From a virus, in the IMG/VR virus record IMGVR_UViG_3300046812_000275, positions 1-20,014 of that record: a DNA stretch of 20,014 nucleotides; one strand, written 5' to 3'. The notes beneath the pieces were generated by a model. It saw nothing but the letters and a program-made list of their open reading frames with translations, was not told the DNA's origin and did not search any database. Below, one piece after another: positions 3,525 to 20,014 of the stretch. Positions within the stretch are counted from its first letter, which is position 1, and each line of letters opens with the position of its first letter. The translations under genes and the position numbers were made by a program.

Positions 3525-3534
3525 TGGTGCCGCG

Positions 3535-4676: not shown

Positions 4677-4681
4677 ATCCC

Positions 4682-4718: not shown

Positions 4719-4723
4719 CAACA

Positions 4724-5002: not shown

Positions 5003-5036
5003 AACAGCGGGAACACGACGACGACAAGGAACATCG

Positions 5037-6902: not shown

Positions 6903-6924
6903 CGTTTACCGCGCTGCTATAAAC
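6894..6924 (+). promoter_or_regulatory. Promoter/operator, copy 3 of the 21-bp dyad
   Basis: This is the best promoter of the set: TTGACG (6894-6899), an 18-bp spacer, then TATAAA (6918-6923), with the 21-bp dyad at 6904-6924. It differs from copy 1 at only one base (position 11 of the dyad). The ATG of the next gene is 7 bases after the -10, without a Shine-Dalgarno, so the message should be leaderless. Confidence 0.7.
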
Positions 6925-6930
6925 CAGAGC

Positions 6931-7188
6931 ATGGCGATTGAACATGTACCAGGCCCGGCGTCGGCGACGCCGCGGGATCGCGACCCCGGCGGATCCATCC
7001 ATCCATGCTTCACCTGCGGCGCGCCGGCGGCGTGCATCGGCCTGTACGAGGAGATGACGGAGGACGACACGCCGCAGGCGTCGTGCAACGGCTGCTGTGG
7101 CCACGGCAACGAGGACGGCCATTGCGAGCCGATCGATTCCGAGGCGGGGCGCACCATGCTGGCAATCCTGCTCGGTGAGTCGACGTGA
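6931..7188 (+). CDS. Small cysteine-rich (probable zinc-binding) protein
   Basis: The 85-residue protein has C26-x2-C29 and a second cluster C52-x2-C55, C56 and C65 (with H58 and H64 nearby). This suggests one zinc-binding site split by an acidic loop (EEMTEDDTPQ). I recognise no named family. It is the first gene of a dyad-controlled operon and couples by GTGA to the methyltransferase gene. ATG 6931 is the first start after the promoter. It might be a small DNA-binding or regulatory protein, but no target is visible. Confidence 0.7.
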   Translation: MAIEHVPGPASATPRDRDPGGSIHPCFTCGAPAACIGLYEEMTEDDTPQASCNGCCGHGNEDGHCEPIDSEAGRTMLAILLGEST

Positions 7189-7928
7189 CCGCCGTGAAGC
7201 GCAAGCCCGCGCGGCGCGGGAGCGCGTTCCACCTGAGCAAGTCGGCCAACTGGGGCACGCCACGGCCGATCATCGATCTGGGCCGCTCGGTGCTGGGGGA
7301 GATCGACTTCGACGCCGCCAGCGATGCGACGTGGAACGCGATCATCGGCGCGCGCGAGTTCTACGACGGCAGCGCGGGCCGCAACCTGATCGCCGGCGAT
7401 CCGCTGCCCAAGGGCGTGCGCCGCGTGTTCACCAACAGCCCCGGCGACGCCAGCGGCGAGATCGTGCGGATGTTCTGGTTCCGCCTGGTCGAGCTGTGGG
7501 TGCAGCGGGTGATCGATTCCCTGTGGTGGGTCGGGTTCTCCCTCGAGCAGTTCCTGTCCCTGCAAAAGCTGCCCGACGGGTCGCCGTCGCCGTGGCCGTC
7601 GCCGCTGTCCTGCTGCGCCGCGACGCTGATCGGGCGCCGCCGCTGGCGATACCTGCAGGTCGTCGACGGCGTCGTGGTGCCGGGCGGCAAGCCCACGCAC
7701 GGGTCGTACGTCACCCTGCTGCCGTCGCACGACGCCGCCGAGCGCCGCGACCAGCTCGCGATTATGCGGGCCGCTGGGCACCGGCTGGGCGAGTTGATCA
7801 TCCGGCCGCACAACGACGGCGAGGTGGACGAGGCGCCGGTGCGCGGGCCGCTGGAGCTCGCCGCCGAGGCCGCCGCCGCGCGGGTGGCGATGGACCGGCG
7901 CGCCGCGGCACGCAGGATGGCGGCGTGA
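7185..7928 (+). CDS. Phage N6-adenine DNA methyltransferase (Dam-like), variant motif
   Basis: The protein fits the phage DNA N-6-adenine-methyltransferase family. It opens with NWGTPRPII (22-30), has DFDAASD at 41-47 for the SAM-binding region, and then VFTNSPGDASG (81-91) where the catalytic N-P-P-Y/G motif is expected. FW..LVE..V..V....WVGFSLEQ..SLQ (97-127) follows, typical of phage members of this group. The proline after Asn84 is replaced by Ser (N-S-P-G), which could alter catalysis. It would methylate adenines in phage DNA, perhaps against host restriction. The C-terminal 100 residues are helical and Ala/Arg rich. Start GTG 7185 (GTGA overlap), and the gene overlaps the RusA gene the same way. 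Confidence 0.78.
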   Translation: MTAVKRKPARRGSAFHLSKSANWGTPRPIIDLGRSVLGEIDFDAASDATWNAIIGAREFYDGSAGRNLIAGDPLPKGVRRVFTNSPGDASGEIVRMFWFRLVELWVQRVIDSLWWVGFSLEQFLSLQKLPDGSPSPWPSPLSCCAATLIGRRRWRYLQVVDGVVVPGGKPTHGSYVTLLPSHDAAERRDQLAIMRAAGHRLGELIIRPHNDGEVDEAPVRGPLELAAEAAAARVAMDRRAAARRMAA

Positions 7929-8482
7929 GCCGGGCCGCGCAGGCGGTCGCCGAGCTCGCCGCCGCCGGCGACGTCGCGCTGGCCACCCCCGAGGGGTTCG
8001 TGCTGTGGATCGACGGCCAGCCGCGGCCGCAGGGCAGCAAGAAAGTGATCCCAGGGCTGTCGTTCCCGATCGAGGCTGGCAAGCACATCGGGAAGTGGCG
8101 CACCCGCATGAAGCGCGCGGCGCGCGTGGCCAACGCCGGGCGCCAGCCGCTCGACGGCCCGCTGCAGCTGCGCGCGGTGTTCTACTTCACCCGGCCCCGG
8201 ACGCACGTCGGCGTGAAGGGCCTGCGCAAGGCGGCGACGGCGGCGCCGACGTCCCACCACTTGGGCGACCTGTCCAAGCTGGTGCGCGCGCTCGAGGATG
8301 CGATGGTGGACGCGCGGGTGATCGTGGACGACAGCCGGATCACCAAGATCGACGCCACCAAGCTGTGGGGCGACCGGGCCGGCGTCGCGCTGGCGATCGC
8401 GCCGCACCGGGACATCGCCACGCACGACCCGACGATGCGCGTGCTCGACTTGTCGCAGCTCGGGATAGAAGGCGTGCGGTGA
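7925..8482 (+). CDS. RusA-type Holliday junction resolvase
   Basis: The 185-residue protein has the RusA layout. An opening strand WIDGQPRPQGSKK (28-40) is followed by a family-like YFTRP strand (88-92). The acidic core is GDLSKLVRALEDAM (114-127) and then V-D-D-S-R-I (134-139). D115, D125 and D135/D136 are candidate metal ligands. The site of the second Asp in E. coli RusA's D-x-D is Ser117 and the Lys site looks like Arg121; variants of this kind are, as I recall, common in phage members, so activity is still likely. It would cut four-way junctions made during recombination and replication before packaging. Start GTG 7925 overlaps the methyltransferase stop. A tail (about 150-185) has no assigned role. 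Confidence 0.85.
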   Translation: MSRAAQAVAELAAAGDVALATPEGFVLWIDGQPRPQGSKKVIPGLSFPIEAGKHIGKWRTRMKRAARVANAGRQPLDGPLQLRAVFYFTRPRTHVGVKGLRKAATAAPTSHHLGDLSKLVRALEDAMVDARVIVDDSRITKIDATKLWGDRAGVALAIAPHRDIATHDPTMRVLDLSQLGIEGVR

Positions 8483-8868
8483 CCGCCAGCGCCTGGCGCC
8501 GTCGCGCGCAGCGGACCATGCGCGGCGTGCTCGAGGAGCACGGCGGCAAGCCCTTCCAGGACGTGATGCGCGCGATCGACGCCGCGTACCCGTTCGGGCC
8601 GCGCCGGCACCACCCGTACAAGATCTGGCTGGACGAGCGCAGGAAGCTGGCCGCCGAGCTGATGCGCGGCCCGGCCGGCACCGCCGCGAGCTCGCCGCTG
8701 GCGATCGCGTGTCCGTCGTGCGGCGCCGGCGAGGGCCGCATGTGCCGCGACATCGCGACCGGCGGCGCGCTGTTCGACGAGCAGGAACAGCACGCGTTCC
8801 ATGACGCGCGCCGATCGCGCGACAGCGGGCCGCTGTTCGCCGGGCCGGGATCTGCCCCCACTACTTGA
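8479..8868 (+). CDS. Phage zinc-finger protein with AYPFGPR..HPYKIWLDE motif
   Basis: The 129-residue protein has two parts. An N-terminal helical segment holds the recurrent phage pattern A-Y-P-F-G-x-R...HPYKIWLDE (36-53). A C-terminal site has C78-x2-C81-x7-C89 and histidines at 105/108 in the C..C.A..G..C........H...R arrangement, like small actinobacterial and phage zinc fingers. The role is unknown; nucleic-acid binding is a fair guess. GTG 8479 overlaps the RusA stop (GTGA), so it closes this operon. The next promoter begins right at its stop. Confidence 0.72.
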   Translation: MTASAWRRRAQRTMRGVLEEHGGKPFQDVMRAIDAAYPFGPRRHHPYKIWLDERRKLAAELMRGPAGTAASSPLAIACPSCGAGEGRMCRDIATGGALFDEQEQHAFHDARRSRDSGPLFAGPGSAPTT

Positions 8869-8893
8869 CCGCGTTTCTAGCAATGCGGTAAAC
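8865..8893 (+). promoter_or_regulatory. Promoter/operator, copy 4 of the 21-bp dyad (inverted)
   Basis: The dyad is at 8873-8893 and reads in the opposite direction to the other copies: its reverse complement begins GTTTACCGC and ends AAAC. TTGACC (8865-8870) is a good -35. The matching -10 position is GGTAAA (8887-8892), a weak hexamer, 16 bp downstream. GTG 8901 lies 8 bases later. The flipped orientation with the same spacing to the start points to a symmetric protein-binding site rather than to promoter sequence alone. Confidence 0.6.
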
Positions 8894-8900
8894 CGGAGTG

Positions 8901-9224
8901 GTGAAGTATGAGGATCTGCAGCTGCTGCAGCGCTACGCGCTGGCCCAGTACGACGCCGCGGCGGCGGGCCTGCAGGCGGTGCAGATGGACCTGGACCGGA
9001 ACCGGGTCACCGAGTCGACGGCGTACCGGAAGCTGCGGCGCTGGTTCCTGGACATGGACAAGGCCGGCAAGGCGAAGGCGCGCACGTTCCTGCGCGACGG
9101 GATCGCCAAGCTGACCGGAAAGATCGCGGACGATGATCACGGAGATGCACGGCACGGCGAAGTCGGAAGCGGCGGCGATGGGGGAGGCGTGGGAGACGAA
9201 GGCGCGGGCGGCACGGGCGGCTGA
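8901..9224 (+). CDS. Small helical protein of unknown function
   Basis: About 107 residues: a well-formed helical core (residues 1-75, with YEDLQLLQRYALAQYDAAAA and ESTAYRKLRRWFLDM) and a low-complexity Gly/Asp tail that runs over the start of the next gene. I do not recognise a family. GTG 8901 is chosen because it keeps the 8-base distance from the dyad's -10 position seen in copy 1; GTG 8898 is equally open and adds one residue. The tail past about residue 75 overlaps the next frame by 92 bases and looks like translation of sequence shaped for that other frame. Confidence 0.6.
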   Translation: MKYEDLQLLQRYALAQYDAAAAGLQAVQMDLDRNRVTESTAYRKLRRWFLDMDKAGKAKARTFLRDGIAKLTGKIADDDHGDARHGEVGSGGDGGGVGDEGAGGTGG

Positions 9225-9822
9225 TCCCTCGGCCGATCCCATCCCGCGGCCGCACCTGGTCGAGCATGCCAAGGCGGTGGCCGTCGACGCCGCGCGCCTG
9301 GCGCTGAACCTGGGCGCGCTGTCGCAGGCGATCGCCACGTCCGCCGACGAGTACATGGCGCTGTGGAAGGTCGGCAAGCAGTGCGCGGATCTCCTGCTCG
9401 AGGGAGAGCGGCACCTCAAGAGCACGCAGGCCGAGCTGGACGCCGAGCGCGAGTACAGCCGCGACAAGGTGCGCAGTTACGAGGGTCGCATCAGCGCGGG
9501 GATGGCCGACAACGAGCGGTTGAAGGGCCGGGTGGACGAGGAGCGCGAGCGCGCGCAGGGATTCGAGGACGCCAACGTCAAGCTGCGCACCGAGATCGCC
9601 GCTGCTGGGAAGATCGCCGCCAAGGCGGTGGCCGACCATGCGGCGCTGGAGCGCGGCATCGAGTCGGCGACCACGATCGATGACGAGGCGTCGGCGCTGC
9701 GCGCCCAGCTCGAGCGGATGCGCGTGGCCGACAAGGCGATGCGTGCGACGATCTGCGAGCGGCTGTATCTGCCGCCGGACACCGAGTGGTCGGGGATCCT
9801 GCCCCTGATCGGAAAGCGCTGA
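9133..9822 (+). CDS. Coiled-coil protein of unknown function
   Basis: The 229-residue protein has an Ala-rich N-terminus and then a segment ending EYMALWKVGKQCADLLLEGERH. A long heptad-rich region follows (about 95-170: STQAELDAEREYSRDKVRS and onward), then a shorter helix pair. The C-terminus CERLYLPPDTEWSGILPLIG resembles a small folded cap. No catalytic motif is visible. The start is uncertain: ATG 9133 overlaps the previous gene by 92 bases, while ATG 9178 would shorten this to 47 and has a GGAAG upstream. Scaffold-like, structural or DNA-binding roles are possible; none is shown. Confidence 0.65.
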   Translation: MITEMHGTAKSEAAAMGEAWETKARAARAADPSADPIPRPHLVEHAKAVAVDAARLALNLGALSQAIATSADEYMALWKVGKQCADLLLEGERHLKSTQAELDAEREYSRDKVRSYEGRISAGMADNERLKGRVDEERERAQGFEDANVKLRTEIAAAGKIAAKAVADHAALERGIESATTIDDEASALRAQLERMRVADKAMRATICERLYLPPDTEWSGILPLIGKR

Positions 9823-9825
9823 CCC

Positions 9826-10116
9826 GTGGACAAGGACGGAACGAACGGCGGGGACTTCGAGCGCGCGCAGCCGGCGCGCGGCGAGACGGTCGGCCAGCGC
9901 GGCGCGCGGCGCGGCGGCCTGGCCGCCAGGCTGGGCGCGGTGATGGTCCGCAGGGTGCCGACGGTCTGGGAGGTGCTGCGGCCGGGCAAGGCCGGCGAGC
10001 GCGACCGGGTGCGCACCTACTACCGGACCGACGAGCGGTACATGTCTCCCGAGCAGCTCGTGGCGCGCGCGCGGTACAACAAGCGCAAGCGCCAGACCCA
10101 CCGCCGCCGGCGGTGA
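9826..10116 (+). CDS. Small basic protein of unknown function
   Basis: The 96-residue Arg-rich protein begins at GTG 9826, with GGAAAG nine bases upstream. Its N-terminal third is Gly/Arg/Ala low complexity. The rest holds VPTVWEVLRPG and VRTYYRTDERYMSPEQLVARARY and ends in a basic tail (NKRKRQTHRRRR), which suggests nucleic-acid contact. No family is recognised. An inverted repeat follows in the 81-base gap after it. Confidence 0.6.
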   Translation: MDKDGTNGGDFERAQPARGETVGQRGARRGGLAARLGAVMVRRVPTVWEVLRPGKAGERDRVRTYYRTDERYMSPEQLVARARYNKRKRQTHRRRR

Positions 10117-10128
10117 CTTCGCGCGGCC

Positions 10129-10160
10129 CGCGCTGGCACCTCCCCCGTGCCACCAGCGCG
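10129..10160 (+). terminator. Hairpin between genes (weak terminator or mRNA structure)
   Basis: CGCGCTGGCAC (10129-10139) pairs with GTGCCA-CCA-GCGCG (10147-10160) with a 3-base bulge and a C-rich loop. There is no T tract, so it may stabilise or process the transcript rather than terminate it. It fills most of the gap between 10116 and 10198. Confidence 0.4.
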
Positions 10161-10197
10161 ATCGCCGCCGTCGGACTGGCCGGGGACCAGGAACGTC

Positions 10198-11076
10198 ATG
10201 GGAGCACAGGCACAGGAGCGCCTCGCCGCGGAACCGATCGAGTTCCGGCTGCCGCCGATCGGCTACCGCAGGTCACTGCGGGTCACCACGCACGCCATCA
10301 AGCGGATGGTGGACCGCTCCAACGACTTCGGGATCGCCTGGCCGCAGGGCGGTCACGAGACGGCGGCGATCGGCAGCGCGATCGACCTGCTGATCTGCGA
10401 GGCCCGCGCGCGCGACGCCGTCGGCGTCTGGTGGGATACGGGCGGCGACGGCGAGGAAAAGCAGGTCGAGCTCGCCACGCTCGACACCGGCGCCGGCCGG
10501 CCCGCGCTGCACGCCGTGATCGTCGACAACGACGTGGACGACGGGCAGGCCAAGGCGGTGCTGACCATCCTGTACGACCGGCAGCTGCACGCGTCCATCC
10601 GCACCGGCCGCTTCACGAAGGAGCGCCGCAGCAGCGGCGAGGCCGCCCGGCTGGTCTCGTTCGGGGCCAAGCTCGAGGGCCTCGCGATCATCCCGACGCC
10701 GGGCGCGGCGCCGGTGCCGATCACGTCCAACGCCACGCTGCCCACCGCCTTCGAGCAACCCGCCGAGCTCACGCCGCCGCCAGTGCCCGACACGCTGCCG
10801 TCGCGCAGCGCGCGCCGCGATCGGCCGGCGCCCCGCGCCGAGCAGCACACCGCCGAGGTGGAGGCCGCCGGTCTGGTCGCCGCGCCGGGCGCGCTGATCA
10901 CGTTCCAGCCGCTCGACGGCGATCGCCAGACCGTCGAGGTGCACACGTGGGACGCGGTGCCCGGCATCATCTCCGACCTGGTCGACGACGGGATCGACAT
11001 CACCAAGATCGCCACGTACCGCCTGGTGCCCCTCAAGGTGCGCCGGGCCATCACCGTCACCCTGGGAGAGGAATAG
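10198..11076 (+). CDS. Two-domain protein of unknown function
   Basis: The 292-residue protein (from ATG 10198, with AGGAA five bases upstream; an in-frame GTG at 10147 lies inside the preceding hairpin) has two conserved-looking parts. These are joined by a Pro/Ala/Arg-rich linker (about 170-225). The first contains RVTTHAIKRMVDRSNDFG and then strands such as GVWWDT, ALHAVIVDND and AVLTILYDR. Its layout reminds me loosely of small RelE/BrnT-like folds that start with a T.HA..R motif, but the match is weak. The second (about 225-292) contains LITFQPLDG, a VPGIISDLVDDGIDITKIATYRL segment and an ordered end. No catalytic residues can be assigned. Confidence 0.6.
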   Translation: MGAQAQERLAAEPIEFRLPPIGYRRSLRVTTHAIKRMVDRSNDFGIAWPQGGHETAAIGSAIDLLICEARARDAVGVWWDTGGDGEEKQVELATLDTGAGRPALHAVIVDNDVDDGQAKAVLTILYDRQLHASIRTGRFTKERRSSGEAARLVSFGAKLEGLAIIPTPGAAPVPITSNATLPTAFEQPAELTPPPVPDTLPSRSARRDRPAPRAEQHTAEVEAAGLVAAPGALITFQPLDGDRQTVEVHTWDAVPGIISDLVDDGIDITKIATYRLVPLKVRRAITVTLGEE

Positions 11077-11079
11077 CCC

Positions 11080-11730
11080 ATGTCCGAGTACACCGAGGCG
11101 GTCGAGGCCGCCACCACCGAGGCGCGCGCGCGCTTCAACGCGTTCCGCGATGCCGCCGTCCATGATGGCCCGCTGCCGAGTGACCCCCACGAGGCCCTGC
11201 AGGTCGACCTGATGCGCCGCGCGCGCGGCCGGCGCCGCGACTTCGATGGGCTGGCGCTGCGGCTGGTGCAGGAAGTCGGCGAGGCGTTCGAGGCCCGCGA
11301 CGGCGACCCCGCGGTGGCGGCGCTCGGGCGCGCCCTGGTCGCCGCCGGCGAGCTGCTGATCGGGCAGGGCATGTCCCTGGTGCCGGTCGTCGACCTGGTG
11401 CCGCTGACCAGGAACCCCAACGTGGGGCCGTCGTGCTCGCCGGCCGGCGCGCTGGGCTACCTGGCGCGCGCGTGCACGCCGATCGGCGCCCGGGACCTGG
11501 CGTGGCGCCGGAACCTGGTGGCCGGCGTCGCCGCGGCGCTCGCCGCCGCCACCGACACCGTCGAGATCAACAGCAGCGGCGGCGAGGCGATCGACCTGCT
11601 CGAGGTGTACCGCATCGTCGCGACGGAGATCCTGCTGCCGCTGCCGCCGCACCGGACGGTCCCGGAGATCTTGCGGGACCACGGGATCGACCCGACGGTG
11701 GAGGGCGGCACGCCGCCGCGCACGCCGTGA
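11080..11730 (+). CDS. Alpha-helical protein of unknown function
   Basis: The 216-residue protein begins at ATG 11080 behind a strong Shine-Dalgarno (GAGAGGAA, six-base spacing). It is mostly helical: an N-terminal Glu/Ala helix, ALRLVQEVGEAFEARDGD, ALGRALVAAGELLIGQGM, then a middle loop with PLTRNPNVGPSCSPAG and more helices (DLLEVYRIVATEILLPL). I do not recognise the family. It overlaps the next gene by GTGA. Codon use and GC match its neighbours. Confidence 0.65.
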   Translation: MSEYTEAVEAATTEARARFNAFRDAAVHDGPLPSDPHEALQVDLMRRARGRRRDFDGLALRLVQEVGEAFEARDGDPAVAALGRALVAAGELLIGQGMSLVPVVDLVPLTRNPNVGPSCSPAGALGYLARACTPIGARDLAWRRNLVAGVAAALAAATDTVEINSSGGEAIDLLEVYRIVATEILLPLPPHRTVPEILRDHGIDPTVEGGTPPRTP

Positions 11731-12017
11731 CCGCGCCGACCTGCTGCGTTTGCGGCGCGCCCGGCGACCTGCGCCCCTATGGGCCGGGTGGCGCGCCCAT
11801 CTGCTTTCCGTGCGGCACCGCGCCAGAGCGGGTGAACGCCACGGCTGCGGTGTTCACGTCCCAGCTCGAGGCGGCGTGCGACGCCGACCCGGCTGGCATC
11901 CCGCTGCTGACCGACGATGGGCCCATCCCGCTGGCGGCCGCCGACCCCGAGCGGGCGGTGACGATCCTGTACACCGGCGACGGCAAGCCGATCGCGGACG
12001 GCCGGGGGAAGGCGTGA
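11727..12017 (+). CDS. Small zinc-ribbon protein
   Basis: The 96-residue protein starts at GTG 11727 (GTGA overlap). It opens with C6-C7-x2-C... (TCCVCGAPGDLRPYG) and a matching C-F-P-C pair about 20 residues on (GAPICFPCG). This is the usual shape of a treble-clef or zinc-ribbon knuckle. After it come two short stretches with Asp/Pro-rich loops and a C-terminal strand pair (ERAVTILYTGDG). The function is unknown, and it is coupled to the next gene by GTGA. Confidence 0.65.
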   Translation: MTAPTCCVCGAPGDLRPYGPGGAPICFPCGTAPERVNATAAVFTSQLEAACDADPAGIPLLTDDGPIPLAAADPERAVTILYTGDGKPIADGRGKA

Positions 12018-12292
12018 CCCCGCGCGAGCGCATCGAGCGCAACGATCGCGAGCGCGCCGCCGGGCTGGCGCGTACCCTGCGCAGTTCCGTGCAGCGCACG
12101 CTGAACGAGGGCGCTGGAGCCGTCCATCTGCTGGAAAAGGCCGAGCGCGTCGCCGCCGAGCTCCTGGAGTATGCGTTCGGGGCCGGCCGGCACCTCGAGC
12201 GCGAGCGGATGCGGCGCCAGGGACGGCTGCTGCTCAAGCAACGCGCCACCGGCCGCGGGCCGCGGCGCGATCCGTACCTGAGGGCGTACTGA
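12014..12292 (+). CDS. Small charged helical protein of unknown function
   Basis: The 92-residue protein (GTG 12014) is Arg/Glu-rich and predicted to be one or two long helices: RERIERNDRERAAGLARTL, LLEKAERVAAELLEYAFGAG and a basic tail GRGPRRDPYLRAY. No family is recognised. It is held in the operon by a GTGA overlap upstream and a shared-base TGATG junction with the next gene, so its translation is tied to both neighbours. Confidence 0.6.
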   Translation: MTPRERIERNDRERAAGLARTLRSSVQRTLNEGAGAVHLLEKAERVAAELLEYAFGAGRHLERERMRRQGRLLLKQRATGRGPRRDPYLRAY

Positions 12293-13200
12293 TGTCCCCC
12301 AGCGACCGGCCCGACGCGTCCCTGCTGACCGATGCCGCCCTGCTCGAGGAGCTGCGCCGGCGCCGGGAAGCGCGCGCCGCCGGGGTGTGCGACTTCTGTG
12401 CGCGCCGGGCGGTCGACGTGCCGCCGTGCGGGGAACCGGCGCGCCACCAGGCCGCCGCCCAGCACCAGGTGATGCTGTGGGCCAAGCTGGACGCCCAGCC
12501 CGCGCGCCTGCGCGGCGACGCGTCGCTGGTCGCCGAGGGCGCGCCGCCCACCCAGCCGCTGGTGTCGTGCGCCGACACCCTGCAGGCCGAGCTGGTCCGG
12601 GACCTGGTGCGCGAGGTGGGCCGGCAGACCGCCAGGGACGGCAACGGGCCCACGCTGGCGCACCTCATGACGGAGATCGGGGAGGTGGCCACGGCGCTGC
12701 TCGAGCGGGGCGCCCCGCAGCGCGGCGAGCTCGTGCAGGTCGCCGCCGTGGCCCTGGGGTGGGCCGAGGCGACGGCGCGCCGGTACGAGGCCAAGCAGGA
12801 GCACGACCGGCACCAGCGCGAGGCCGCCCAGGACATCGACCACGCGGCCAGGGTCCTCGAGGTGCAGCCGGCCGGCCCGGCAGCCTTCACGGCCATGGCG
12901 GTGGCGCTGCGGGCCGACGCCGCGCGCGCGGAGCACCGGCGCGGGGGCCTGCAGTACAGCAAGGCGAACGCCGCCAACGTCCTGGCGCTGGGCGAGCTCG
13001 GCGCCGCCCACCTCACCCCGCACGCCGCCGACGCGCTCGCCGCCATCCGGGTGGGCCTCAGGGTGCGCAAGGGCGGGGTGGCGCTGTCGTTCCAGCGCGC
13101 CGTCGCGCTCGCCGACTACCTGCAGGAGTGCGCCCTGGTGGCCCCGCGGGTGTTCCACGGGAAAGCAGAGGAATCGATGGAAGCGCAGGTGGTTACGTGA
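12292..13200 (+). CDS. MazG-like nucleotide pyrophosphohydrolase-domain protein
   Basis: The middle of the 302-residue protein (about 120-162) holds a MazG-like signature: H124-L-M-T-E128-I-G-E131-V-A-x-A-L, then GELVQVAAVALGWAEA, where E146 is the second acidic cluster. The usual ELADVA aspartate is Gln here, as in phage members with ELVQVAA. Such all-alpha enzymes hydrolyse NTPs or alarmones. An N-terminal Cys set (C33-x2-C36...C46) may bind zinc. The C-terminal half (about 205-290) is a separate helical region, ending with a YLQE segment, that I cannot name. ATG 12292 shares a base with the previous stop. It overlaps by GTGA the deoxyribosyltransferase-like gene, which supports a nucleotide-pool role. 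Confidence 0.68.
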   Translation: MSPSDRPDASLLTDAALLEELRRRREARAAGVCDFCARRAVDVPPCGEPARHQAAAQHQVMLWAKLDAQPARLRGDASLVAEGAPPTQPLVSCADTLQAELVRDLVREVGRQTARDGNGPTLAHLMTEIGEVATALLERGAPQRGELVQVAAVALGWAEATARRYEAKQEHDRHQREAAQDIDHAARVLEVQPAGPAAFTAMAVALRADAARAEHRRGGLQYSKANAANVLALGELGAAHLTPHAADALAAIRVGLRVRKGGVALSFQRAVALADYLQECALVAPRVFHGKAEESMEAQVVT

Positions 13201-13595
13201 TCGACGTGGTGTACATGGCCCACCCGGTGGGCGCGCCAGATGCCGCCGGGGTAGCCGCCAACGTGGCGCGCGCCACCCGCTGGTACCGGTGGCTGCTCGA
13301 CACCGAGCCTGGCCGCGCGATCACGGCGCCTTGGCTGGCCACGCTGCTGGCCGGCGTTCCCGACGACGACGCCAACCGGGCACGCGGCCTCCGAGACGAC
13401 TGCGCGATCGCGTGCCGCCTCGATGGGATCGTCCTGGTCGGTGGGCGTATCTCCACGGGCATGCGGCACGAGCTAGACGCCGTCGTGGCCGCCGGCGGAT
13501 GGGTGTCGGACTGCACGTGGCTGGGCGACGAGCCCCCGACCATCGATGCGCCGCTGCACCCGATCGACGCCGGGCGGTTCTGGTGGGGACGATGA
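13197..13595 (+). CDS. DUF4406 / nucleoside 2-deoxyribosyltransferase-like protein
   Basis: The 132-residue protein opens with IDVVYMAHPVGAPD (a strand ending in the small-G/P loop typical of this Rossmann-like family). It has an N..RA..WY..L helix (about 23-36), PWLATLLAG, and RDDCAIACRLDGIVLVGGRISTG...ELDA (about 64-95). In these families the second acidic strand and the GGR/S..M..E segment form the nucleotide-binding site. It would act on nucleosides or nucleotides in the cytoplasm, alongside the MazG-like protein. GTG 13197 overlaps the previous stop, and ATGA links it to the next gene. Whether it retains enzymatic activity cannot be read from the sequence. Confidence 0.65.
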   Translation: MIDVVYMAHPVGAPDAAGVAANVARATRWYRWLLDTEPGRAITAPWLATLLAGVPDDDANRARGLRDDCAIACRLDGIVLVGGRISTGMRHELDAVVAAGGWVSDCTWLGDEPPTIDAPLHPIDAGRFWWGR

Positions 13596-13987
13596 CCGCC
13601 CACCTTCGCCGACCCTGCCCCGGCTGCCTCGCACCCGTGCCGCGCTACCAGGTGCAGGAGTACGACAGCGGCGGGGTGGCGTGCCGGTTCACCTGCCGCA
13701 ACTGCAGCAGGGTATGGCACGTCGAGCCCAGCGGCATCTGGGAGGCCAGGACGCCGTGCCACCGCTGCGGGACCGACTGCGAGGCGCAGCCCGGCGGCCT
13801 GGTCTGGCGCCTCGAACCGGCGCAGGCTGGGTGGCGCGTGCTGTGCGCGCCGTGCCACCAGGCGTGGCGCGACAAGCTCGCTAGCCTAATTGTCCTGGTA
13901 TCACGCTATCCTGAGCAGGTAGTGGACGCGTTCCTGAGGATGGCTGAGGCCGCGGGAACGTCACGTGACGTCACGAACAACGAGTGA
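13592..13987 (+). CDS. Multiple zinc-ribbon protein with GTSRDV tail
   Basis: The 131-residue protein (ATG 13592, overlapping the preceding stop) has four Cys pairs: C9-x2-C12, C35-x2-C38, C56-x2-C59 with C63, and C85-x2-C88. They suggest two zinc ribbons of the nucleic-acid or protein-binding type. A helix (ASLIVLVSRYPEQVVDAFLRM) follows, and the protein ends AGTSRDVTNNE. That end is encoded by the same CACGTG palindrome seen in the replication gene, so the tail may exist because of the DNA site. The stretch around 13879-13925 is less GC-rich than the rest. No precise family is recognised. Confidence 0.65.
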   Translation: MTAHLRRPCPGCLAPVPRYQVQEYDSGGVACRFTCRNCSRVWHVEPSGIWEARTPCHRCGTDCEAQPGGLVWRLEPAQAGWRVLCAPCHQAWRDKLASLIVLVSRYPEQVVDAFLRMAEAAGTSRDVTNNE

Positions 13988-14008
13988 CGTCACCAAGCGT
14001 CACGTGAC
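13958..14008. repeat. Cluster of CACGTG/GACGTC palindromes before the terminase small-subunit candidate
   Basis: Within 51 bases lie ACGTCACGTGACGT (13958-13971), an overlapping CGTGACGTCACG (13964-13975), GTGACGTCAC (13984-13993) and GTCACGTGAC (13999-14008). The last ends two bases before the ATG at 14011. Copies of the first word occur at 5040 and 5465. The cluster replaces any Shine-Dalgarno. It could be an operator, or a packaging or replication site. Confidence 0.75.
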
Positions 14009-14010
14009 AA

Positions 14011-14589
14011 ATGGCAAGGAAGGCACCACCCAAGTCCGCGAAAGTAGCCAAGCGCAGGCCGCCGGCCAAGCGCAAGCGGCAGTCCATGCGCGGCGTCGTG
14101 CGCGAGGTGCGGATGGGCGTGCTCGAGGACCTGCTGGTGCAGCTCATGCCCTGGGAGGACATCGTGGCCATCCTCGGCGAGCCCCCACCGCGCGGGTTCG
14201 GGCTGACCGAGGAGCTCCTGGAGAGCTGGGCCCGGGTGATCCGGCAGCGCTGGCGGGCCGAGGCCGACGCCACGCGTGCGGTGCTCAAGGCCGAGCACCG
14301 GGCCCGGGTCGGCGCCGTGTTCCGCCGGGCGTACCAGCGCGACAACACCATGGCCGACAAGGTCGCGCTGGACGCCGAAAAGGTGCTGGCCCAGATCGAC
14401 GGCGTGCTGCTGCCCGGCCAGGTGGTGGTGAACAACAACACGCTGAACATCGCGGCGCTGACCCCCATGCAGCGGCAGCAGGAGATCGACCAGCTCTTGG
14501 AGAAACGCCGGGCGGCGCTCGCCGCGCGCGGGGCGAAGTCGCTACCCTCGGCGACGATCATCGAGGCAACCGCGGCCGAGCGCCGCTAG
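14011..14589 (+). CDS. Candidate terminase small subunit (DNA-binding)
   Basis: The 192-residue protein begins with a Lys/Arg-rich arm (1-27). A helical region with a possible HTH follows (about 36-56: GVLEDLLVQLMPWEDIVAILG), then FGLTEELLESWARVIRQRWRAE. A long helix pair has ALDAEKVLAQIDGV (119-132), where many phage small terminases carry their oligomerisation helices, and an N-N-N linker and charged tail complete it. This build and the place four genes upstream of the large terminase suggest the DNA-recognition subunit, but no family-specific residues prove it. ATG 14011 has no Shine-Dalgarno; translation may re-initiate from the stop 23 bases upstream. The palindrome cluster is immediately in front. 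Confidence 0.5.
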   Translation: MARKAPPKSAKVAKRRPPAKRKRQSMRGVVREVRMGVLEDLLVQLMPWEDIVAILGEPPPRGFGLTEELLESWARVIRQRWRAEADATRAVLKAEHRARVGAVFRRAYQRDNTMADKVALDAEKVLAQIDGVLLPGQVVVNNNTLNIAALTPMQRQQEIDQLLEKRRAALAARGAKSLPSATIIEATAAERR

Positions 14590-14598
14590 GAGACGAAC

Positions 14599-15168
14599 AT
14601 GCAGAGCACGATCGAACAGGCACGGGAGCACGCGCTGGCGGCGCTCAAGCACGTAGATCCGACCTGCCCCGGCGGCAGCAACTTCCACGGCAAGGCCGGT
14701 GAGGCGATGATCTTCACCTGCGCGACGTGCCATCGCGAGGTGCGGGTGTCGAACCTGACCGCCGACGGCGCCAGCGCGGATGTCGAGGTGCCCAGCCTCA
14801 AGCGCCGCGACCCCGACCAGGTCGACATCACGCTGCGGGTGCCGCGCGAGGCGATCGACCAGGCACGCCGGCGCGCCGAGCACCAGGCGCTCGACAAGCT
14901 GGGCCGCGAACGGCTGCACGCTGCCGGCTGCCCGCACCAGGCGCTCGGCACCGAGGGCGAATCGTTCCACCCGGCGCTCGTCGAGGGCGCATACACGCTG
15001 CGGTGCGCGCTCCCGAGCTGCGACGTGGAGGCGAAGGTGACGATCGACGAGGCGCTGGCGGTGGCGCCGCTGTCGATGGACCACCACCGCGCCGACCGTC
15101 TGGCCGACGCCGCGCGCGCGGCCGCCGACGAGTCGCTGCTGGACGTCGTGCCGCCGTCCGCGACCTGA
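14599..15168 (+). CDS. Protein with two Cys/His modules, unknown function
   Basis: The 189-residue protein starts at ATG 14599 behind AGGAGA (five-base spacing). It has two similar putative zinc sites. The first runs from C23 through H30 to FTCATC (C41, C44). The second runs from C111-x-H113 through H124 to LRCALPSC (C136, C141). Each is followed by a short charged or hydrophobic strand (HREVRVS and DVEAKV). A linking helix (REAIDQARRRAEHQALDKLG) separates them. The module also resembles one in the next gene. No family is recognised. The repeat suggests duplication of a small nucleic-acid-binding unit. Confidence 0.62.
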   Translation: MQSTIEQAREHALAALKHVDPTCPGGSNFHGKAGEAMIFTCATCHREVRVSNLTADGASADVEVPSLKRRDPDQVDITLRVPREAIDQARRRAEHQALDKLGRERLHAAGCPHQALGTEGESFHPALVEGAYTLRCALPSCDVEAKVTIDEALAVAPLSMDHHRADRLADAARAAADESLLDVVPPSAT

Positions 15169-15186
15169 TACCCTACTGCAGTAAAC
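15166..15186 (+). promoter_or_regulatory. Degenerate fifth copy of the 21-bp dyad
   Basis: Read on the - strand this site starts GTTTACTGCAGT and keeps one arm of the dyad; about 12 of 21 positions match copy 1, all but two of them in the left half. It lies in the 36-base gap before the gene at 15205. There, unlike the other copies, a Shine-Dalgarno (GGAGGA, 15195-15200) sits between it and the start. A half-operator is possible; a chance match is not excluded. Confidence 0.3.
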
Positions 15187-15204
15187 CCGACGACGGAGGA
15201 CGAC

Positions 15205-16749
15205 ATGGACGACAAGAACAGGCCGATGACCGCGCTGGCCCACCCGCTGCCCGACGCGATCGCCGCGGCGGCCGCCGAGCACGATCGCCACCTGCGCGAG
15301 GTGCGCGCCGAGGCGAAGATCCCCCCGTGCATCGACGACAAGCTGCTGGGCGCGATCCTGTCGCACGTGGCCCAGCAGAACGTCGGCGGGTTCATGGACA
15401 CGCGGGTGTCCGCGGTACGCATCGAGGGCGCCGGCGGCGACCACTGGAGCGCCGAGCTCGACGTGGAGTGTGCTGGCATCGGGTACACCGTGTACGTGAC
15501 GCTCGACGGCAACCGCTACGAGATCGGTCCGATGCTGCGCGTGCCACCGCGGTGGGCCAAGACGCTGGGGCGCGCGCGGAGGCCGACCGAATGGGAGCGC
15601 CAGGTGCTCGGCGAGTACCAGCCGGCGCAGCCCCACGCCGAGTCCGCGCGCGCCTACGAGGAGCGCAAGCTGATCCAGATCGCCGCGTGCCAGGTCGGGC
15701 AGGGCTGGCACGCCGGGCGTGCGGGCCGGTGCGATGGCCTCGACTTCGTGCATGACCACATGAAGCCGGACGGCACGCACATGGTGGCATGTCCAGGCTG
15801 CGGCTGGAAAACCTCGGTGTCCGAGGAGCTGGCGCTGCGGCAGTTCATCAGCGCCGAGTTGTACAAGCGGATCATCAGCGGTGGCCTATCGAACCCGGGC
15901 GCGCAGCAGCGGACGCTGGCCGCGGTCAACGAACGCATCGGCGCGCTGATGTACGAGATCGCCAAGCAGGGGCGGATCGCCACGGTCGAGACGGCGACGC
16001 ACGAGGATCTCGATCGGCTGGCCGGGCTGGTCAACGTCAAGCGCGAGGAGATCAGGGCGGTGGCGCCTGGGCTGTGGGCAGAACAGACCGGCAGCCTCGC
16101 CGAGGCGCTGGCGAAGATCGCGCGTCTTGGGCAGCAGCTCGGTGAGGCGCGGGCCGATCTCGCCAAGGCGAACGCCGACTGGCAGCAGGTCGTCGCCGTC
16201 GCCGAGCGAAGGCTCGATGAGGTCCAGCGAGCGAAGCGCTTGGAAGCGGCCGCGGTAGCCCACGCCCGCGAGCTGGTGGACCAGAAGGCCGCGCTGCGCG
16301 ACGAGCTCTCATGCTGGAAGGGCGACCCGCTGCTGCAGGCGACGGCGGCCTGGTCACGCGCGGTGCGCGATCTCGACGACAACGGCGTGTCCGCCGAGCG
16401 GACGAAGGCGATCGTGGACGCGCGCGATCGGTTCATCGAGATCGCGCAGGAGCGCGGCGACTCGTGGCGGTTCGCCTACTACGGCGCGATGGACCTGGGC
16501 TGGTCGCTGTTCAAGCTCGGCCAGGATCTCGCCGGGCGTCGGCGCGAGGAGCGGCGCCTGGACCTGCAGCGCACGCACGTGGCGCCCAGCGAGACGGGCG
16601 CGCCGATCCCTCGCGAGGAGTGGGCGGCCGAGCTGGCAGCCAAGCTGCGCGCTCGAGCGGCGGCGCGCGCCAACCCGGTGGCGTGCCAGGGCGATGACTC
16701 CGACGACGTCGGCGCCGACGTGATCGACCAGGCGCCAGCGATCCGGTGA
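15205..16749 (+). CDS. Large coiled-coil protein with a Cys/His site, unknown function
   Basis: The 514-residue protein begins at ATG 15205 with GGAGGA four bases upstream. Residues 1-110 hold a small alpha/beta region (GYTVYVTLDGNRYEIGP). A zinc-like site follows: C176, H183/H185, C196-x2-C199 (MVACPGCGWKTSVS), similar to the modules in the previous gene. Then comes a long charged helical region with heptad character (about 235-365) and a second conserved-looking region (WSRAVRDLDD and RFIEIAQERGDSWRFAYYGAMDLGW, about 383-434). No enzymatic motif is visible. It sits between the two terminase-region genes and could be structural, scaffold-like or DNA-associated. The GTGA overlap couples it to the next gene. 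Confidence 0.68.
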   Translation: MDDKNRPMTALAHPLPDAIAAAAAEHDRHLREVRAEAKIPPCIDDKLLGAILSHVAQQNVGGFMDTRVSAVRIEGAGGDHWSAELDVECAGIGYTVYVTLDGNRYEIGPMLRVPPRWAKTLGRARRPTEWERQVLGEYQPAQPHAESARAYEERKLIQIAACQVGQGWHAGRAGRCDGLDFVHDHMKPDGTHMVACPGCGWKTSVSEELALRQFISAELYKRIISGGLSNPGAQQRTLAAVNERIGALMYEIAKQGRIATVETATHEDLDRLAGLVNVKREEIRAVAPGLWAEQTGSLAEALAKIARLGQQLGEARADLAKANADWQQVVAVAERRLDEVQRAKRLEAAAVAHARELVDQKAALRDELSCWKGDPLLQATAAWSRAVRDLDDNGVSAERTKAIVDARDRFIEIAQERGDSWRFAYYGAMDLGWSLFKLGQDLAGRRREERRLDLQRTHVAPSETGAPIPREEWAAELAAKLRARAAARANPVACQGDDSDDVGADVIDQAPAIR

Positions 16750-17435
16750 CCGCCATGGACATCCCCGCGATCGAACCCATCCTGTGCCGCTGCTGCGGCC
16801 TGGTCACCGCGCCAACCCAGACGCTGCGCGGGCTGGTGCCGTCGTGCATCAGGTGCACCGGGCACTGGGCCCAGGCCATCCGCTGCGGCGGCGTGCACGG
16901 CGATGCGCTCCAGCGCGAGGCGCTGCAGCTGTGGAAGGTCGGCATGTGGGCGCCCTGGTACGTCGTCGCCGTCCTGGCGACCGACGACGCCCACCTGGCC
17001 AACCGCCTGCTGGTGGACGTCGGCGGCGGCAAGGTGCCCCCGGTCAGCCTGCGGGTCGAGCAGCCCCCGCGCCTGTGGGAGGTGGTGCTGGCGCGCGCGC
17101 TGTGCGCAGGCACCATCCCAAGCCACGAGGAAGTCGTGGAGGCGTGTATCCTGCCGTTTGCCGGCTGGCCCAACACCGAGGCGACGCGCGCGGCGATCGC
17201 CGGCGAGCTGCGGCGCGCCATCGGCGCCGCGGTCGGCGAGGTGGTGGAGCTCGACATCGAGGTGATGCCCGAGCCGGGTCACGCCGGCGGGTTCGTCGCC
17301 ACCGTCACCGCCCGCGTGGCCCCCGAGGGCAGCGTGGTGATCTCGCAGGCGCCGCCGGCGGCCACCAACGCCGAGGAGCACGCCGTCGACCAGCTCGCCA
17401 AGGTGCTGCCCTTCCGGGGCCGCGCCGAGGCGTAG
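16746..17435 (+). CDS. Zinc-ribbon protein of unknown function next to TerL
   Basis: The 229-residue protein (GTG 16746, or ATG 16755 three codons later) starts with a Cys ribbon C14-x2-C17...C34-x2-C37. A mixed alpha/beta body follows (about 40-160, containing MWAPWYVVAVLATDDAHL), then helices (ATRAAIAGELRRAIGAA) and a beta-rich end (FVATVTARVAPEGSVVIS). I do not recognise the family. It is directly upstream of the terminase large subunit (three bases), so it is translated with it and might act in packaging, though nothing in the sequence shows this. Confidence 0.62.
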   Translation: MTAMDIPAIEPILCRCCGLVTAPTQTLRGLVPSCIRCTGHWAQAIRCGGVHGDALQREALQLWKVGMWAPWYVVAVLATDDAHLANRLLVDVGGGKVPPVSLRVEQPPRLWEVVLARALCAGTIPSHEEVVEACILPFAGWPNTEATRAAIAGELRRAIGAAVGEVVELDIEVMPEPGHAGGFVATVTARVAPEGSVVISQAPPAATNAEEHAVDQLAKVLPFRGRAEA

Positions 17436-17438
17436 CCC

Positions 17439-18893
17439 GTGGCCGAGGGCCTCGCCGTCGAGCAGATCGAGCGCGTCGAGCCGGTCGAATGGACCGAGGA
17501 CGACGACGCGCGCCTGGCGGCCCTGCTAGAGGCCGAGTACGGCGGCGAGGATCTCGACGGCTACATCCGCCGGGTGTCGCCGCGGCACCTGCCGCCGCGG
17601 CACATCGCGCCGATCATCAAGCTGTGGAACCGCACGCGATACGAGCGCGTGCTGGCGTGCATCGAGCTGCCGCCGCGGCACGCCAAAACGACGACCGGCC
17701 TGCACGGGCTGGGCTGGCGGTTGAAGCGCGATCCGGCCTGCACCAACGCCTTCGCCACGTTCGGCGACGACTACGCGGCCAGCCGCTCGAGGATCGCCCG
17801 CACGCTGACCCGCGCCGGCGGCGTGACGCTGTCGAAGGAGATGGCGAATCTCCACGAGTGGCGCACGACGTACGGCGGCGGGTGCCTGTTCCACGGCTAC
17901 CAGGGCGAGTGGACCGGCCAGGGCATCAACGGGGTGGCGCTGATCGACGACCCTTTCAAGGACCGGCGCGCCGCCGAGTCGGGGAAGATCCGGGAGAACG
18001 TCTGGGAGTGGTTCTGCGATGTGCTGTGGACGCGACTCGAGGAGAGCGCCTCGGTGCTGGTGCAGCACACCCGCTGGCACACCGACGACCTGATCGGCCG
18101 GCTGCTGGCCGGCAAGTTCGCGGGCTACACCTTCGAGCGGCTGCGGCTGCCGGCGATCTGCGACGACCCCAGCACCGACGCCATGGGCCGCGAGCTCGGG
18201 GAAGCGCTGTGGCCCGATCGGATCCCGCTCGAGGAGCTGCTCAAGATCGAGAAATCGATCGGGCCCTACGGCTGGGCGTCGCTGTTCCAGCAGCAGCCGC
18301 GGCCGCGCGGCGCGCAGCTGTTCAACGACCCCGCGCGCTTCACGCTGGCCAACTGGTCGCCGGACGGCAAGCGCGTGCTGCTGTGCGCCGACCCGGCGGC
18401 GACCGACGACAACCACGCCGATCACTCGGCGGCGTTCGCGCTGTACGCCGAGGGCTACGGCGACGACATGAAGATCTGGGTGGTCGACTGCTACCGCCGC
18501 CAGGTCACGGTGCCGACGTTCGCGCGCGCCCTGTGGGGCATGCAGGTGAAGCATTACAAGGCGCCGGTGGCCGTCGAGGCGGCCGGCGCGTTCAAGGCGG
18601 TGCCGCAGCTCCTGCGCGAGCTCGCGCAGGGGATCCGCCTGATCGCCATCACGCCGCTGGGCGACAAGTACACCCGCGCGCAGCCGCTGGCGGCGGCGTG
18701 GAACGCCGGGCGGGTGCTGGTGCCGTATGACGCGCCGTGGGCCGAGCAGATGATCTCGGAACACGTCGACTTCACCGGCCTGGACGATCCCGAGGATGAC
18801 CAGGTCGACGCGATGGCCCACGGGTTCAACACGCTGTGGTCGGCGCGCCCGGCGAAGCGCGGCCAGAAGCGGAACCGCGGCGGGTTCGGCTGA
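17439..18893 (+). CDS. terL: Terminase large subunit
   Basis: The 484-residue protein is a clear phage packaging ATPase-nuclease. The ATPase half has a Walker A variant LPPRHAKTT (77-85), a Walker B VALIDDPFK (166-174) and a coupling segment QHTRWHTDDLIGRL (209-222). The C-terminal RNase H-like nuclease supplies D318 (CADPAATDD), a V-E pair at 379-380 and D457 in DDQVDAMAHG (453-461), the three expected metal ligands. Length and motif order match the psiM2-like/terminase-6 family. It translocates genome DNA into the procapsid and cuts it, together with a small subunit (candidate at 14011) and a portal outside the window. Start GTG 17439 lies three bases after the previous stop, with GAGG upstream. 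It is followed by a compound palindrome. Confidence 0.93.
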   Translation: MAEGLAVEQIERVEPVEWTEDDDARLAALLEAEYGGEDLDGYIRRVSPRHLPPRHIAPIIKLWNRTRYERVLACIELPPRHAKTTTGLHGLGWRLKRDPACTNAFATFGDDYAASRSRIARTLTRAGGVTLSKEMANLHEWRTTYGGGCLFHGYQGEWTGQGINGVALIDDPFKDRRAAESGKIRENVWEWFCDVLWTRLEESASVLVQHTRWHTDDLIGRLLAGKFAGYTFERLRLPAICDDPSTDAMGRELGEALWPDRIPLEELLKIEKSIGPYGWASLFQQQPRPRGAQLFNDPARFTLANWSPDGKRVLLCADPAATDDNHADHSAAFALYAEGYGDDMKIWVVDCYRRQVTVPTFARALWGMQVKHYKAPVAVEAAGAFKAVPQLLRELAQGIRLIAITPLGDKYTRAQPLAAAWNAGRVLVPYDAPWAEQMISEHVDFTGLDDPEDDQVDAMAHGFNTLWSARPAKRGQKRNRGGFG

Positions 18894-18935
18894 TGCGATC
18901 CTCAGAGGATCGTACGATCCCCAGAGGATCGCATC
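18892..18935. repeat. 44-bp compound palindrome overlapping the terL stop; possible terminator
   Basis: The segment is a near-perfect 44-bp inverted repeat centred on GTAC (18912-18915). Each arm is itself a smaller hairpin (GATCCTCAGAGGATC and GATCCCCAGAGGATC). It begins within the terL stop codon and lacks a T tract. It could fold as one long hairpin or two small ones, so a factor-assisted terminator, a protein site or a packaging-cut region are options. Confidence 0.7.
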
Positions 18936-18936
18936 G

Positions 18937-18966
18937 CTGGACGTGATCAGGGGGCGGCGCTAGTTT
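18937..18966 (+). promoter_or_regulatory. Possible promoter before the small gene at 18974
   Basis: CTGGAC (18937-18942) and TAGTTT (18961-18966) are separated by 18 bp. The ATG at 18974 follows 7 bases after the -10-like hexamer, with no Shine-Dalgarno. This is the same spacing as the dyad-linked starts, but the dyad itself is absent. Both hexamers are weak. Confidence 0.35.
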
Positions 18967-18973
18967 CCCGACC

Positions 18974-19171
18974 ATGCCCCACGACAAGAACGGAAAGCAG
19001 CTCGAGGCCGGCGACCTGGTGACGGTCGAGGCCAAGGTGACGTCGGTGCAGCCCGGCGAGGACTACTGCAACGTGACCGTGGAGACGGTCGAGCCGATGT
19101 TCCCCGGCGACAACAAGAGCACGATCACGCTGAACACCAAGCAGGTGGCCAAGGTCGATCCGCCGCTCTAG
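18974..19171 (+). CDS. Small conserved-type phage protein (beta-rich)
   Basis: The 65-residue protein is almost all strand: GKQLEAGDLVTVEAKVTSV, EDYCNVTVETVEPMFPGD, and STITLNTKQVAKV. The pattern D..G..L..GD.V.V...V..V.....CNVTVE recurs in small phage proteins and looks like a compact beta-barrel (SH3/KOW-like) fold. This is recognised by pattern only, and the role is unknown. ATG 18974 is the only sensible start. The TAG stop (19169-19171) overlaps the stop of the convergent - strand gene. Confidence 0.65.
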   Translation: MPHDKNGKQLEAGDLVTVEAKVTSVQPGEDYCNVTVETVEPMFPGDNKSTITLNTKQVAKVDPPL

Positions 19172-19506
19172 AACGGGATGGACGACTCGCCGGCCTGCTG
19201 GCGCAGGTAGCGCTCGAGCTCGTCGGCGATCGCGGCATCGGACCAGGCGCGCAGATCGAGGACGTCCATCCCCTCGAAGTAGCCCCGGCGGTTGTCGCGG
19301 TCGTAGTGGTGATCGGCGCACAACGGCACGCAGTCGCGATCGGTGCCGCTGCGCCGCGACAGCGCGCGCACCCCGACGTCGCCGGCGTGGGCGGCCTGGA
19401 CGACGCCGCGGCAGTCGCCGGCGCCGTCGACCCCGCGCAGGCGGCACGGGCGCAGCTTGATGGCCCGCAAGAAAGCCCAGTCCCGCTCGCGGTCGCTGTA
19501 CCTCAC
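19168..19506 (-). CDS. HNH-like nuclease
   Basis: The 112-residue protein has the spacing of a small HNH/DUF968-like nuclease. CRLRG (C21) and DCRGVVQAAHAGD (C32, H40) come first, then VPLCADHHYDRDN (C63, H66, H67), where the last His pair and the following Asn fit the C-terminal half of a beta-beta-alpha metal site. It would nick or cut DNA; HNH proteins beside the terminase are known to aid cos cleavage in some phages, but here it is on the opposite strand, so other roles (homing-like, defence) are equally possible. GTG at 19506 overlaps the previous - strand stop (GTGA). The frame continues open upstream to 19569, but that would ignore the coupling. Confidence 0.68.
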   Translation of the reverse strand: MRYSDRERDWAFLRAIKLRPCRLRGVDGAGDCRGVVQAAHAGDVGVRALSRRSGTDRDCVPLCADHHYDRDNRRGYFEGMDVLDLRAWSDAAIADELERYLRQQAGESSIPF

Positions 19507-19727
19507 GGGTGCGCCGCAGCCGCGTGGGCGGCGCGCTGGGCGGTTACGTCGCCGACGCAGTCGCTGCACACAGCGAACGGCTGGCGGCAGCTGCAGACCG
19601 TCCAGCGCATCGCAGGGCGCTTGCAGCCCGGCGTCGAGCAGGGCGGCCGGTGCGCCGCCGCATGGCCAGGCCAGCGGTGCCAGAACGTCGCGGGGGTGCC
19701 GCGGCCCGCCGAGCTGGACGCGATCAC
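19503..19727 (-). CDS. Small cysteine-rich protein
   Basis: The 74-residue protein has C30, C35, C45, C47, C54 and C57 in 28 residues (PPCSTPGCKRPAMRWTVCSC, then FAVCSDCVGD). This is a compact zinc-binding arrangement, enough for one or two metals. It ends in an Ala/His tail. The GTG start at 19727 overlaps the upstream - strand stop, and its own stop overlaps the next start, both as GTGA, which is the main support for it being real. No family is recognised. Confidence 0.6.
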   Translation of the reverse strand: MIASSSAGRGTPATFWHRWPGHAAAHRPPCSTPGCKRPAMRWTVCSCRQPFAVCSDCVGDVTAQRAAHAAAAHP

Positions 19728-20014
19728 GGCGGCCCCGGACAGGCCCAGAACGCCGGCGGCAGCACGTCGGGGTGGTGGAACCCGCCGATCGCGCTCGGGT
19801 GGGCGGCCTGGATCGCGATCTCCGTGATCTCGAACGCGCAGCGCCTGCAGCGGATCACGTCGGCGTGGGCGCGCTGCAGCAGGTGGCGGCGAGGCGCCGC
19901 CGGTCGCGGGGCGGGAGCGGCGATCGGTCGAATCGGGCCAAATCGGCCAGGAGACGTGCTGTAGCGCCTTCGCTCGCCGGGCGCGGAACGCCGGCCCAGG
20001 GCGGCCAGCGCGAT
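19724..20014 (-). CDS. Partial zinc-ribbon-like protein, open to the window edge
   Basis: This frame is open without a stop from the right edge to the TGA at 19724-19726 (96 codons). Its C-terminal part (VIRCRRCAFEITEIAIQAAH, then FHHPDVLPPAFWACPG) holds a C-x2-C pair, histidines and a final Cys, so it looks zinc binding. The N-terminal part is Pro/Arg rich. The true start may lie outside the window, or could be GTG 19858, giving 44 residues. Its stop overlaps the start of the next - strand gene, which makes a three-gene operon. Confidence 0.5.
   Translation of the reverse strand: MALAALGRRSAPGERRRYSTSPGRFGPIRPIAAPAPRPAAPRRHLLQRAHADVIRCRRCAFEITEIAIQAAHPSAIGGFHHPDVLPPAFWACPGPP

Follow-up and report, generated by a model that had tools for sequence, protein, structure and literature searches.

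The window, that is, the whole stretch of DNA analysed, is an entire IMG/VR record of 20,014 bp and is classed as linear. All genes identified at 117-19171 lie on the plus strand. This rightward unit carries a RecE-like exonuclease, helicase loaders and a RusA-like resolvase. At the right end, the open reading frames D, C, B and A form a minus-strand chain from 20014 down to 19168. Four-base GTGA overlaps join them at 19503-19506, 19724-19727 and 19855-19858. The features of the right end are:

17439-18893, plus strand: terminase large subunit (Terminase_6C, E 6.9e-7; phrog_38, E 2.8e-63)
18892-18935, no strand: near-perfect palindrome of 44 bp (palindrome scan, RNA folding)
18974-19171, plus strand: gene E, 65 aa, convergent with gene A (strong coding signature)
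19168-19506, minus strand: gene A, HNH-superfamily nuclease, 112 aa, GTG start (relative at locus L002, coding signature, dN/dS, profile matches)
19503-19727, minus strand: ORF B, 74 aa, six cysteines in 28 residues (GTGA overlap with A, Cys density)
19724-19858, minus strand: ORF C, 44 aa, one CxxC, GTG start (GTGA overlap with B, GC3, log-odds)
19855-20013, minus strand: ORF D, open at the contig end, coding doubtful (GC by codon position)

An earlier sequence-only reading had placed the minus-strand genes behind the terminase. They do not follow it directly. The gap between the terminase and the HNH gene A measures 274 bp and contains gene E on the plus strand and the 44-bp palindrome. The stops of genes E and A share the CTAG at 19168-19171. 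The palindrome starts at the terminase stop and consists of two 17-bp near-palindromes 19 bp apart. It has the top score in a palindrome scan of the window. A search for its core pattern in 38 loci matched two, both of them stretches of the window itself. RNA around the palindrome folds with a z-score of -4.36 and has no T tract. The element is perhaps a U-less terminator or a pair of operators. Neither a sigma-70-like promoter nor a T-tailed terminator was detected in 18700-20014. Second in the same scan is a perfect 24-bp palindrome, CGGGAACGTCACGTGACGTTCCCG, at 5465-5488 inside a DnaD-like gene (5047-6108); its sequence suggests a possible regulator binding site.

Gene A is a real gene. Its GC3 is 0.96 and its codon log-odds are +0.39 per codon, with +0.58 for the terminase. 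Gene E has a GC3 of 0.97 and log-odds of +0.79. Both A and E share the codon signature seen in the rest of the phage's genes. Gene E has sub-threshold matches to KOW (E 0.049) and SSB-type (E 0.037) models; it has no NCBIfam match and no match in phage records at E <= 0.1.

The coding signal varies among the upstream ORFs. ORF C is a fair call (GC3 0.96, log-odds +0.32); over its stretch at 19727-19855, the plus-strand frame scores +0.28 versus +0.31 for the C frame. ORF B is ambiguous. Its GC3 is 0.91 and its log-odds are -0.14, and at 19506-19724 a plus-strand frame scores +0.05 versus -0.16 for the B frame. The density of six cysteines in 28 residues is mildly unusual: it was reached in 1.5% of 5,000 shuffles of its own frame, in 4.8% of shuffles when any of six frames counts, and in one of 348 real open stretches of 74 aa from 1-18890. 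The Cys-rich partner that the sequence-only reading saw here thus stands as to cysteine content and is weakened as a gene by the coding statistics; from its sequence, B is a possible zinc-binding protein. Coding by ORF D is doubtful: GC by codon position is 0.72/0.79/0.81 and log-odds are -0.38. The last ~157 bases (19858-20014) have no codon periodicity, and the final 42 bases of the window have no exact match among viral contigs. The upstream gene had been described as cut by the window edge. This is not necessarily so: GTG 19858 can serve as the start of ORF C, and the ORF that is cut, D, is the one without codon periodicity. Neither B, C nor E scored above a cut-off against Pfam, PHROGs, NCBIfam or PADLOC.

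An overlapping chain of coupled minus-strand ORFs in a plus-strand region, ending at 19168, is therefore present as first described, with B, C and D less certain as genes than A. B and C are plausible, unproven genes. It is possible, if doubtful, that the HNH gene is the one real gene here and that the ORFs upstream arose by chance or from a misassembly near the contig end. Such an effect would be compatible with the reading of gene A preferred below. It would agree with the missing codon periodicity at 19858-20014, the ambiguous signal of B and the GC content of 0.752 in 19168-20014 versus 0.719 before. Relatives of B were not found in viral contigs, and B, C and D gave nothing better than E 0.25 against the record of the close relative of gene A (G001) or the locus of the terminase relative (L010), both introduced below. 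The successive GTGA overlaps, and GC3 values of 0.91 for B and 0.96 for C, argue for genes instead.

One close relative of gene A was found in IMG/VR by a search that may omit records very near the window's own. It is encoded by IMGVR_UViG_3300033233_001247 (G001, 35,883 bp) at locus L002. The two genes share 78% protein identity and 81.5% DNA identity with a dN/dS of 0.48. At this dN/dS, both look selected as proteins. The G001 gene, too, starts where it overlaps the ORF upstream by GTGA. At the DNA level, the top local alignment of the window with G001 covers 19508-19166, which is the HNH ORF and hardly anything more. Since the relative has the same overlap and start and the alignment ends there, GTG 19506 is the most likely start of the HNH gene, rather than 19569.

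Similarity to G001 is confined to this gene. When the window was compared by tblastx with the two halves of G001, the best 40 matches contained one strong one, the HNH gene (222 bits); the others, antisense frames of the HNH gene aside, reached at most 36.3 bits. The flanks of the HNH gene in G001 have no DNA similarity to the window's flanks, and the window's terminase has no match in G001 at E <= 0.001. Upstream of the HNH gene, G001 encodes a ParB-methyltransferase protein, a matchless 113-aa ORF, a helicase, a ParB-like protein and two small ORFs. Downstream follows an AAA_23, weakly SbcC-like ATPase and then a long run of minus-strand ORFs, two of which have no PHROGs match. The HNH gene of G001 thus has DNA-metabolism neighbours. 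In L002 (1582-6669), a UvrD-like helicase lies on one side of it and an AAA ATPase on the other. This helicase and ATPase match many PADLOC models, likely at the superfamily level only.

From these comparisons, the HNH gene seems to have been passed between otherwise dissimilar phages as a single gene. A separate cassette, as suggested earlier, gains from the sharing with an otherwise dissimilar phage and loses from the extent of it: the gene is shared alone, and its partners B, C and D are not. Examined for presence or absence as a unit in relatives, the cassette reduces to the HNH gene, the only part common to the window and G001. Single-gene sharing (seen in the best 40 tblastx matches with G001), the end of DNA similarity at the ORF ends and the lack of an HNH match in the nearest terminase relative would also fit a free-standing selfish gene of the homing type, which spreads by cutting genomes without it. 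We regard this as rather unlikely. A start within a GTGA overlap in both phages is the place of a coupled operon gene and not of an inserted island, and the distant relatives described below lie within DNA-metabolism modules. That a mobile single-gene nuclease targets the terminase-gene E region, for example at the 44-bp palindrome, is very improbable; if true, it would tie that site to the gene's spread or to the formation of genome ends.

The position near the terminase raises the question of packaging. HK97 gp74 is a packaging-associated HNH protein that helps the terminase to cut DNA. The best IMG/VR relative of the window's terminase is 56% identical (L010/L012 in G003, 53,650 bp). In G003, a portal gene follows 10 bp after the terminase, then a gene for a minor head protein, both on the plus strand. 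The HNH profile, run against nine records, matched only the known carrier G001; G003 had no match at E <= 10, so that gene A is absent beside the nearest terminase relative. A second terminase relative (L013, 55%) ends at the terminase, which leaves G003 as the one informative relative for the neighbourhood. A packaging HNH gene as a conserved neighbour of the terminase was not seen in it. Upstream of the window's large terminase gene, at 14599-17435, three plus-strand genes of 189, 514 and 229 aa follow a 192-aa gene and have no PHROGs match at E <= 0.01. By tblastx, the 192-aa gene resembles DNA ahead of the L010 terminase; the corresponding interval in L010 is below 1 kb.

A packaging-associated HNH protein acting in the manner of HK97 gp74 is accordingly an improbable reading of gene A. 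It draws on the distance of 274 bp to the terminase gene and on an HNH-terminase partnership described in PMC12817073, which names the HK97 gp74 type. The result most favourable to it comes from locus L032. There, a distant HNH member lies one gene behind a terminase (PF17289, E 2.8e-18) on the same strand, so a packaging link may exist in the wider family. In the window, the HNH gene lies on the opposite strand, with gene E and the hairpin in between. The portal gene of G003 takes the place next to the terminase, and no match for that of the window is seen in the carrier G001 at E <= 0.001. Sequence comparison thus does not support a packaging role of gene A. The doubt about packaging in the sequence-only reading is upheld, and conservation of the same genes at this place in all relatives, which would have made them core genes, was not seen, as G003 has no HNH match. 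An HNH gene next to a terminase need not mean packaging. As a separate observation, the L032 stretch 2825-8651 holds the terminase, a same-strand 264-aa ORF that is glycosyltransferase-like by eye and has no PHROGs match, and the HNH gene; ORFs past the HNH gene look sugar-related by eye.

Another rival reading is a defence, exclusion or toxin cassette of the HNH gene and small Cys-rich partners. Small coupled ORFs on the opposite strand are in line with it. Expression of the P1 nuclease Ref is described as toxic to E. coli (PMC4713147), and Gp16 of phage NM1 as inhibiting the growth of S. aureus (PMC12817073). Such a cassette is nevertheless hardly to be expected: HNH, B, C and E matched none of the PADLOC families at E <= 0.1, and the partners are not shared along with the HNH gene.

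The protein of gene A has no match among Pfam or NCBIfam models, and the DUF968 profile has no match in the window at E <= 1. Its family tie runs via relatives. The G001 protein scores 17.4 bits against DUF968, below the cut-off of 27.8, at profile positions 90-150 of 171. It matches phrog_16371, phrog_1588 (3.2e-4), phrog_96 and phrog_131 weakly. In seven records searched with phrog_1588 at E <= 10, the window and G001 had one match each, both times the HNH gene; a control matched 7 of 14 named genomes. Gene A itself matches phrog_1588 with E 0.001 in a one-record search and E 0.11 against the whole PHROGs library. A profile of the two HNH sequences matches a protein at L023/L032 (G011) with E 4.7e-6. 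This protein passes the Pfam cut-off for DUF968 (30.7 versus 27.8 bits), stays below that for Ref (PF16786; 19.6 versus 26.9 bits) and, at L023, matches phrog_1588 with 5.1e-11.

A wider scan yielded 12 loci including L002, with the exact duplicates L031, L033 and L036 dropped. The resulting alignment A4 has ten rows: gene A, the G001 relative and eight distant members. At E <= 0.1, nine rows match DUF968 and seven match Ref (best E 0.001); gene A is the sole row that matches neither. Six residues are invariant in all ten rows and are candidate metal-site residues: C21, C32, H40, C63, H66 and H67. A third histidine is present in the eight distant rows, whereas gene A and the G001 relative have D71 and N72 nearby. 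With this histidine missing, activity of gene A is not assured. Only 20 residues precede the first conserved cysteine of the 112-aa protein, leaving it without an Orf-like or Ref-like N-terminal part.

A structure model based on A4 has a pLDDT of 74 and predicts strands at 36-40 and 59-63 and a helix at 64-68; a model from the two sequences (pLDDT 56) was too poor to use. The first nine of 17 Foldseek matches were Cap5 (eight) and EcoKMcrA (one), which we take to be HNH nucleases; all had E >= 0.76 and are not significant. The best VIA-align match was 3g27, a putative phage protein of E. coli K-12, with a non-significant Z of 4.5. Cap5, McrA and IscB chains had Z 2.4-3.4, and two unrelated proteins 2.0-2.9. 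Gene A has the residue pattern of the HNH superfamily and, in the model, its strand-strand-helix order, with fold matches that are not significant. Gene A is firmly an HNH-type protein at the superfamily level; the original label HNH-like is borne out by the invariant residues and the DUF968 and Ref matches of the relatives. Gene A has no DUF968 match above the cut-off, no Orf-like N-terminal domain and no Ref match, and the L023 relative is below the Ref cut-off. By sequence, gene A is a divergent stand-alone relative of DUF968 and Ref and not a formal member of either.

Among 50,697 phage records, no relative of gene A was found at E <= 0.01; ten records matched at E <= 10, the best at 0.09. 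Plasmids had none at E <= 0.1. A search of 398 genomes of the phylum of G002 had none at E <= 1e-4 and says little, as it had no positive control. PDB sequence searches had no match at E <= 1 and one chance match at E 2.7. The Rhodospirillales match L006 is antisense to a 904-aa ORF and was rejected as an HNH relative. Streptomyces phage Bmoc gave two profile matches with E 0.0128, of which the one examined is antisense to an annotated gene. A 62-base phage DNA match to 19100-20014 falls within the HNH gene, but the long open frame of the matching stretch codes for a different product, and the match was taken as chance.

The distant HNH genes have neighbours of their own. In L027 and L028, the HNH gene and the end of a helicase gene overlap, with a DNA methyltransferase gene nearby. 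Judged by their ORFs, loci L029-L031 and L033-L037 appear to represent a single module. An ORF for a primosomal protein lies upstream in L029, L031, L033, L035 and L036 (identified by profile only in L031), and the module has an opposite-strand helicase (by profile only in L029).

Taken together, gene A is probably a laterally exchanged HNH nuclease of DNA metabolism that ends a leftward operon and has no packaging role. It would come last in a leftward unit whose genes are probably coupled in translation and which runs towards the rightward unit of replication, recombination and terminase genes. Its product would most likely nick or cut DNA during phage replication or recombination. Candidate substrates are recombination intermediates or host DNA. 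The protein may act alongside a recombination protein, in the way that Ref works with RecA. It would take no part in packaging and would be exchanged between phages as a single gene. We infer this action on replication or recombination DNA by analogy with the published activities of DUF968 proteins, Gp16 and Ref; catalytic activity, substrate, timing and partners of gene A are predictions. This reading is based on one close relative, and the operon start lies off the contig. If it is true, the phage HNH group of DUF968 and Ref gains a divergent relative that stands alone, and gene A is a case of a single gene that moved between dissimilar phages and retained a start coupled to its operon. Gene A is thus mostly ordinary, with a small twist.

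Several known systems can be compared with gene A. With the HK97 gp74 type, compared by gene position alone, it shares the location near a terminase gene; unlike this type, it is on the opposite strand and does not accompany the nearest terminase relative. Publications covering YbcO, HNH and RusA together were not found in the literature. DUF968 proteins (PF06147) are described as an Orf recombination-mediator domain joined to an HNH domain (PMC4118853). Their HNH part groups with gene A by the pattern AAH ... D ... PLC..HH. In contrast to them, gene A is a stand-alone protein of 112 aa that lacks the Orf-like N-terminus, the third histidine and a direct match. Ref of phage P1 is reported to cut RecA-bound DNA only (PMC4713147, PMC3973344), and its metal core is described as beta-beta-alpha (PMC3973344). 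Seven of the ten A4 rows match Ref weakly, whereas gene A has neither the long charged unstructured N-terminus nor a direct match.

Gp16 of phage NM1 is described as a RecA-stimulated early protein that has NinB-like and HNH domains and nicks DNA (PMC12817073). The invariant residues of gene A resemble the CxxC, His and CxxHH in that description: a zinc-finger Cys pair, a CxxH and an HNH-type histidine correspond in kind. This likeness comes from the description and not from a sequence alignment. As described there, Gp16 differs by its NinB-like N-terminus and its CxxC, as the first Cys pair of gene A is 11 residues apart and the third histidine is absent. Gene A, its G001 relative and the L023 protein are joined by phrog_1588, a family of unknown function in PHROGs that all three match.
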